A program made the position numbers and the translations under genes. Shown here in pieces: positions 23,847-24,361 of a DNA stretch of 37,488 bases; within the stretch, counting starts at the first letter, position 1, and every line of letters begins with the position of its first letter. This DNA is from Elusimicrobiota bacterium (GTDB taxonomy: Bacteria; Elusimicrobiota; Elusimicrobia; Elusimicrobiales; UBA9959). The notes beneath the pieces are model-generated. The model was not told where the DNA came from. It was given only the letters and a program-made list of their open reading frames with translations, and searched no databases. Location of the stretch: contig JACRER010000030.1 of NCBI GenBank assembly GCA_016234365.1, forward strand, positions 1-37,488, in the 5' to 3' direction.

Positions 23847-23915
23847 CGGGCGCCCCCGCATAGGGGAAAAATGGTAAAATATAGCTGTAGTAACGCTCTT
23901 TGAGAACCCTTTAAT

Positions 23916-24263
23916 GGGGGCGAACAGGTTCGACGTTTACTTGTTCTGCAGGATCAGCAGGCCATGGTTGACCAGGCCATGTAAAACAGGGTCAAAAAAA
24001 CAAAAGCCAACTCCAACGAGCTGGCCTGGGCGCACGCCTAAGTGTGCCTCGCTTACAGCCTGTCCGCCTGAGCGGGCTGTCTGCGTTAAATTCAGGCTGC
24101 TGTTCAAGGGGGCGCGCTTCGTCCCGCTTGAGCTTAAGACAAGACGGAGCTGGCCCGTTCCTTGCGGCCCCGGGTTTAGGGCGGGCGAGACAAAGCTGGG
24201 GATAAGCCTGTAGCGGTTCCTGCAAGCGGTAGGCGGACGCGAGTGCGATTCTCGCCGCCTCCA
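23916..24263 (+). ncRNA. ssrA: Transfer-messenger RNA (tmRNA), one-piece
   Basis: The 5' end GGGGGCGAACAGGTTCGACG matches the conserved tmRNA start. The acceptor stem GGGGGCG/CGCCTCC (24256-24262) carries the G3-U70 pair needed for alanine charging, with discriminator A at 24263; CCA is not encoded. The T-arm is GCGAG/CTCGC (24239-24243, 24251-24255) with loop TGCGATT, where position 55 is G instead of the near-universal U. The tag reading frame, ending at TAA 24039-24041, most likely resumes at AAA 23994 and encodes KKTKANSNELAWAHA. The resume codon is inferred by alignment with E. coli (AGTC before GCA). It rescues ribosomes stalled on broken mRNAs. Pseudoknots were not folded. Confidence 0.95.
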
Positions 24264-24269
24264 TACTTT

Positions 24270-24303
24270 AAGCCGGCCTTCGAAAGAGGGCCGGCTTTTA
24301 TTT
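24270..24303 (+). terminator. Terminator of the tmRNA gene
   Basis: AAGCCGGCC (24270-24278) pairs with GGCCGGCTT (24289-24297) and is followed by TTATTT. It starts seven bases after the mature 3' end. Confidence 0.85.
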
Positions 24304-24332: not shown

Positions 24333-24361
24333 GTGACAACCGCGCTTATGTTTCCTACAAT
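24333..24361 (+). promoter_or_regulatory. Promoter of the BaiN/HI0933-type flavoprotein gene
   Basis: GTGACA (24333-24338), 17 bases, TACAAT (24356-24361). The ATG at 24370 is eight bases after the -10, so the leader would be about two bases. Confidence 0.55.

Follow-up and report, generated by a model that had tools for sequence, protein, structure and literature searches.

The subject of this analysis is the transfer-messenger RNA (tmRNA) gene, ssrA, of an Elusimicrobiota bacterium, carried on a contig of 37,488 nucleotides (JACRER010000030.1, assembly GCA_016234365.1) that we refer to, at its full length, as the window. The tag that this tmRNA encodes ends Trp-Ala-His-Ala, and we found no ClpX in the genome from which it comes. 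Our reading, to which we give a probability of about 0.62, is that the tmRNA is a normal one whose degron was rewritten in a lineage that lost ClpX, and that the new end is likely still a degron, read by some other AAA+ protease, with Lon the first candidate and ClpC-ClpP the second. Both the degradation of tagged proteins and the identity of the protease that reads them are matters that we infer. What we observed is an association: a tag end of the form W-A-x-A, where x is variable, tracks the loss of ClpX.

The gene was found by two routes. ARAGORN reports a single tmRNA in the window, at 23916-24263 on the forward strand, with the tag ANSNELAWAHA and its TAA stop at gene positions 91-126 (24006-24041, forward strand). 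The Rfam tmRNA model RF00023 matches at 23916-24266 over its full length (model positions 1-374), with 125.9 bits (E = 5e-49) where the gathering score is 47. The 5' strand of the acceptor stem, GGGGGCG (23916-23922, forward strand), pairs with CGCCUCC at 24256-24262 in both the sequence and the Rfam alignment, with a G-U at the third position, G3-U70, which we take to be the alanine identity pair. The CCA of the 3' end is not encoded (the gene closes with CCTCCA TAC). By its sequence, then, the window holds a genuine one-piece tmRNA, predicted to serve normal trans-translation; it shares with the RF00023 family the full-length match over the gathering score, the G3-U70 acceptor and a tag frame with a stop, and differs in a tag that ends W-A-x-A instead of the usual -(A)LAA. 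The resume codon is GCC at 24006-24008 (forward strand). The four codons for W-A-H-A occupy 24027-24038 of the same strand, the conserved part being W-A-x-A when the tags of relatives are read codon by codon, and with the stop they read TGG GCG CAC GCC TAA (24027-24041). The original prediction, made from the letters of the window, had called the WAHA ending and called it unusual, and on both points it was right. It had also started the tag frame at 23994; the frame and the end stand, but the KKTK codons at 23994-24005, though in frame, lie upstream of the resume codon. A misplaced tag frame, for which a conflicting covariance-model annotation would have been the sign, is ruled out: the ARAGORN frame is the one conserved in relatives.

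How far does this ending extend? The window's genome (G000; 2.72 Mb, 96.5% complete) belongs to a phylum from which we could search 340 genomes, in families labelled f1, f2 and so on to f29. A tmRNA over the Rfam cut-off was found in 43 of the 59 genomes of its family, in 120 of the 149 of its order and in 275 of all 340. Since these searches scored some of each genome's candidates and not all, a genome without a match is not thereby without a tmRNA. We read tags in 173 of the 340: 165 spread over the families with listed matches, seven Endomicrobium-like genomes chosen because intact clpX had not been found in them, and G040, whose tag was assigned through a tag-pattern match outside the fetched stretch. 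The tags read come from families other than f10, f13 and f28. The W-A-x-A end was present in every one of the 102 genomes read in f1, f2, f9, f11, f12, f14 and f15 (101 directly, one via the pattern match). A script read 97 of these 102 tags at codon level. In all 97 the Trp at position -4 is TGG, the Ala at -3 is invariant through four synonymous codons, and the Ala at -1 is invariant through two. Position -2 varies: His in 40, Asn in 24, Thr in 24, Val in 4, Ala in 4 and Leu in 1, with Cys in G178. Unchanging Trp and Ala residues, the alanines encoded by changing codons, mean that the W-A-x-A end is under selection as a peptide. The suggestion that the tag had simply drifted is not borne out. 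Nor is WAHA the product of chance or a sequencing error, since the degenerate pattern NE[LM]AWAxA-stop recovers 40 stretches from one genome per species of 84,980 species, 35 of them with titles that name Elusimicrobia, Elusimicrobiota, Elusimicrobiales or Elusimicrobium and five titled only 'bacterium'. Ordinary LAA ends in close relatives would have pointed to such an error; the nearest relatives share W-A-x-A, none has LAA, and LAA ends are first met with in families elsewhere in the class, all of them families that retain ClpX.

With the TIGR00382 cut-off, and at most five candidates scored per genome, ClpX was found in 93 of 340 genomes. Among the 173 genomes with a read tag, 50 of the 60 with an Ala-Ala end had ClpX over the cut-off, against none of the 113 with any other end (W-A-x-A, 0/102; f27 and f29, 0/8; three other genomes, 0/3); Fisher's test, which ignores kinship, gives 7.5e-34. 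Put the other way around, none of the 50 genomes with ClpX over the cut-off carries a non-Ala-Ala end. A closer search, scoring nearly all candidates in 69 genomes picked to cover the tag endings, found ClpX, complete in length or nearly so, in the Ala-Ala genomes apart from G240 and G292; the A-x-A genomes had none. In the window's genome all 19 of 19 candidates were scored and no ClpX was found, the best (E = 2.1e-7) being a partial AAA match; there is no SspB adaptor in it either. An inspection of ClpX and its adaptor in the same genome had been proposed, together with the idea that a different degron is accepted by the lineage's proteases, and the outcome suits that idea, with ClpX missing from G000 and from every related W-A-x-A genome checked. 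Two of the three other genomes, G276 and G277, are 52-53% complete, and their missing ClpX says little. The ClpX proteins of the phylum have the GYVG loop in 40 of 40 sequences and the RKH loop in 29 of 40 (those matching our search expression). One W-A-x-A genome, G206, does contain a 232-codon ClpX fragment on a 3 kb contig. We took it as contamination: it is 68.5% identical to Escherichia coli ClpX and at most 61.6% identical to Elusimicrobiota ClpX, and the Lon on the same contig is nearest to E. coli Lon among those compared.

Synteny tells where ClpX went. In E. coli K-12 the gene order is tig-clpP-clpX-lon; the locus in the window's genome is tig-clpP-lon, with no clpX. We fetched 60 such regions from the phylum. 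A clpX gene occurs in 22, of which 18 have the order clpP-clpX-lon with 1219-1573 nt between clpP and lon; from the stretch of the remaining four, clpP or lon is missing. A further 36 regions come from A-x-A families (among them G184, which contributed no tag) and have clpP and lon without clpX; in 35 of the 36 the two genes are separated by 200 nt or less, negative values reflecting overlapping genes or the choice of start. The other, G148, has 1083 nt between the two genes, and no clpX turned up there. In G240 the gap is 56 nt, and in G292 tig stands directly before lon, as it does in G282. Assembly gaps cannot produce a missing clpX of this kind. The locus also preserves a gene in decay: G259 (L377, G259:C6:38500-45500) has a clpX pseudogene with in-frame stops between clpP and lon, and a tag that still ends Ala-Ala (PMAA), and its close relative G250 has clpX intact.

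Outside the W-A-x-A families the endings are varied. Tags of f3 to f8, from the window's own class, end LALAA; those of f16 to f19 have Ala and one of Tyr, Phe or Cys ahead of a final Ala-Ala; f20 has HLAA, and f22, f25 and f26 have ALAA or AMAA. In f21, f23 and f24 the tags are long, and most of them close with IAA, LAA or MAA. A second group without ClpX ends in A-x-A as well: f29 tags end VAHA or VAYA (once VAHC), and G330 of f27 ends YATA. The three other genomes without Ala-Ala, all Endomicrobium-like, end MVA (G276), LVA (G277) and LFA (G282, as PLFA). The Endomicrobium-like f21 genomes (G246-G321, for example L072, L088 and L369) stand out for length, with tags of roughly 15 to 50 residues and mostly MPIAA-like ends.

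Why should a tag end depend on ClpX at all? The relevant passages of PMC7652416 describe the Ala-Ala end as the part of the tag that matters most to ClpXP, with pore loops contacting the last alanine and its carboxylate, and report a higher KM when either of the final two alanines is changed. Once ClpX has gone, its requirement for Ala-Ala goes too. Our proposed sequence of events runs as follows. Elusimicrobiota that have ClpX carry a tag ending Ala-Ala. In the window's lineage clpX was deleted from tig-clpP-clpX-lon, leaving the penultimate alanine free to change, and the end became W-A-x-A, as if an extra residue had split the final pair of alanines and the Leu before them had given way to Trp. 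When their tags are compared, both main groups seem to have done the same thing, placing one residue between the last two alanines (AYAA to AYATA; ALAA to AWAxA). The new end would then be read by Lon first and ClpC-ClpP second, with FtsH a further candidate. We think it most likely still a degron because it is under selection, and we favour Lon because Lon is kept beside clpP and because a tag that Lon reads, of the Mycoplasma type, has a similar aromatic-A-x-A end (NYAFA). The wider version of this proposal we regard as an even bet: that clpX was deleted in most of the class (much of Elusimicrobiota), Ala-Ala was split into W-A-x-A and the products passed to Lon or ClpC-ClpP, and that this recurred in the second group and in Endomicrobium-like genomes, A-x-A being a recurring code of tmRNA tags that work without ClpX.

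Mycoplasma is the nearest precedent. In the parts of the literature that bear on it, Mycoplasma has no ClpXP and relies on Lon to read its tag (PMC8138137), NYAFA is the end of that tag (PMC9097571), and a review sets Mycoplasma down as the exception to the conserved ALAA tag end (PMC3985003). The Mycoplasma and Mesoplasma tag (AANKNEENTNEVPTFMLNAGQANYAFA) shares with ours, on the same sources (PMC9097571, PMC8138137, PMC3985003), the lack of ClpX and an aromatic-Ala-x-Ala end in place of Ala-Ala. It differs in being 27 amino acids long and in working where all Clp proteases are absent; Elusimicrobiota are another phylum, their tags of this kind are 9-12 amino acids long, ClpP and ClpC are kept, and the reader is proposed from comparison. 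The ClpX-read E. coli degron AANDENYALAA has in common with the window's tag a ribosome-rescue frame and a C-terminal alanine, but the window's tag ends His-Ala, its terminal Ala-Ala is split, and G000 has neither ClpX nor SspB. The window's tag falls outside the usual class of ClpX-read degrons; by analogy it probably works most like the Mycoplasma tag.

Several points stand against our reading. The degradation of tagged proteins is deduced from genes and sequences. Lon occurs in genomes with ClpX as well, so that finding it does not mark it as the reader, and ClpC is kept too. Four A-x-A genomes (G131, G144, G173 and G176) end W-A-A-A, the last two residues of which would suit ClpX again. 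Ten of the 60 Ala-Ala genomes (G236, G240, G248, G259, G266, G273, G278, G285, G292 and G307) have no ClpX that passes the cut-off, and the tag need not, then, change as soon as ClpX is lost; several of the ten are incomplete assemblies, G259 has the pseudogene, and in G240 and G292 synteny shows a true deletion. Independent events are few, two on a quick Lon tree. And all A-x-A rows can be gathered into one clade; the tree so constrained beats the quick one by 11.5 log units (p-AU 0.688), and the single clade is not rejected by ClpC alone (p-AU 0.379) or by ClpC plus Lon (0.396).

The quick tree itself (84 rows) has ClpX lost on six branches and A-x-A arising on two, both of them ClpX-loss branches. 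Two changes placed at random would both land on such branches with a probability of about 0.001, and in a Pagel-type comparison the model of dependent evolution does better (likelihood ratio of 20.4 on 4 degrees of freedom, p = 0.0004), both results leaning on two separate A-x-A origins. Kinship ranks from the genome search put f27 and f29 outside the window's class and ClpX-bearing f3 to f8 inside it, and for this reason a separate origin for the VAHA/YATA group is favoured, though unproven. G282, in which the genome search found no ClpX, groups with ClpX-bearing Ala-Ala genomes of the Endomicrobium-like family. As to order, G240 has lost clpX and still has an Ala-Ala tag, and G292, without clpX, still ends AMAA; these deletions and the G259 pseudogene suggest that ClpX was lost first and the tag changed afterwards.

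The strongest competitor to Lon is ClpC-ClpP, ClpC being the only unfoldase partner left to ClpP after ClpX has gone. We hold it possible, and clearly the less likely of the two. Lon and ClpP are both full-length in the window's genome, and its ClpC is complete: Clp_N, UVR and the two AAA modules are all there, and its KTLGFMP loop is an LGF loop of the type associated with docking on ClpP. ClpP is kept in all A-x-A genomes of the 69-genome set, G335 having a weak match only, and a ClpA-model match at E <= 1e-100 occurs in 68 of the 69, ClpB not being separated from ClpC in all of them. Against this, clpP has gone from the locus along with clpX in both G292 and G282, where ClpC-ClpP would hardly do (of these two, the genome-wide ClpP search covered G292), the PLFA end of G282 is hardly explained by ClpC-ClpP, and the closest known switched tag, that of Mycoplasma, is read by Lon according to the portions of PMC8138137 and PMC9097571 concerned. 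Adaptors do not explain the new end. SspB was found in none of the 69 genomes, and ClpS, found in 17 of them, is absent from f1 and f2 and so ruled out as the reader. We also considered a change in ClpP itself. The catalytic Asp (E. coli D185) is Asn in every operon ClpP compared (clpP of L302-L361) except three of f29; it is Asn with ClpX and without it (G150, G166 and G243, in the comparison, have ClpX), and a link to the tag is ruled out. The f29 exceptions (G332, G333 and G337; L359-L361) have a different type of ClpP, with QAASMGA and the Asp kept, at the same tig-clpP-lon locus, which suggests a replacement there.

Three further explanations would dispense with a rewritten degron or with its proposed readers. 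Historical coincidence, in which an odd tag became fixed, for unconnected reasons, in a single ancient lineage that also lost ClpX, we find doubtful: the single A-x-A clade that the trees do not reject means that the main association may rest on one event, but coincidence sits badly with the 50 ClpX-bearing genomes, none of which has strayed from Ala-Ala. Relaxed drift, with the end unread after ClpX loss and tagging serving only to free the ribosome, is a shade less credible still. The freedom of position -2 among H, N, T, A, V and L, and C in G178, is what drift would give; a Trp and two alanines held constant through 97 tags, with four synonymous codons at -3 and two at -1, and a motif that turns up in 40 Elusimicrobiota-type stretches, are not. 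Most improbable of all is a ClpX-like AAA+ protein without the zinc domain that replaces ClpX and reads the new end, since such open reading frames (456-556 aa, with a GYVG-type pore loop, an IGF-type loop and 184-303 bits to ClpX in some genomes) fall below both ClpX cut-offs, lack the RKH loop, are patchy, are absent from the window's genome and most W-A-x-A genomes, and occur beside true ClpX in G235 and G324. These patchily distributed proteins (L193-L198 and others) are an observation in their own right.

A rewritten degron in this phylum would matter for three reasons. The same type of tag change as in Mycoplasma would have taken place in a different phylum, in an uncultured lineage that has kept both ClpP and ClpC. 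The genomes form a natural series for the co-evolution of a degron and its reader: intact clpX, clpX pseudogene, deletion with the old tag, deletion with the new. And W-A-x-A tags may provide a new orthogonal degradation tag. In the open-licence literature, where we looked for the tag itself and for tmRNA or ClpX in Elusimicrobiota, no paper deals with this tag, which is weak evidence of absence; the one paper that came up for ClpX in the phylum concerns the GTPase Era.

Around the gene itself, a consensus scan picks out a terminator-like hairpin followed by TTATTT just 3' of the tmRNA (24270-24297, forward strand), a match that by itself is no evidence of function. Two promoter-like stretches are consensus matches only, one upstream of the tmRNA on the reverse strand (23878-23906) and one on the forward strand before the HI0933-like gene (24333-24361). 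That gene, for an HI0933-like flavoprotein, is the neighbour on one side of the tmRNA; on the other is a gene for a protein with an adenylate or guanylate cyclase domain.
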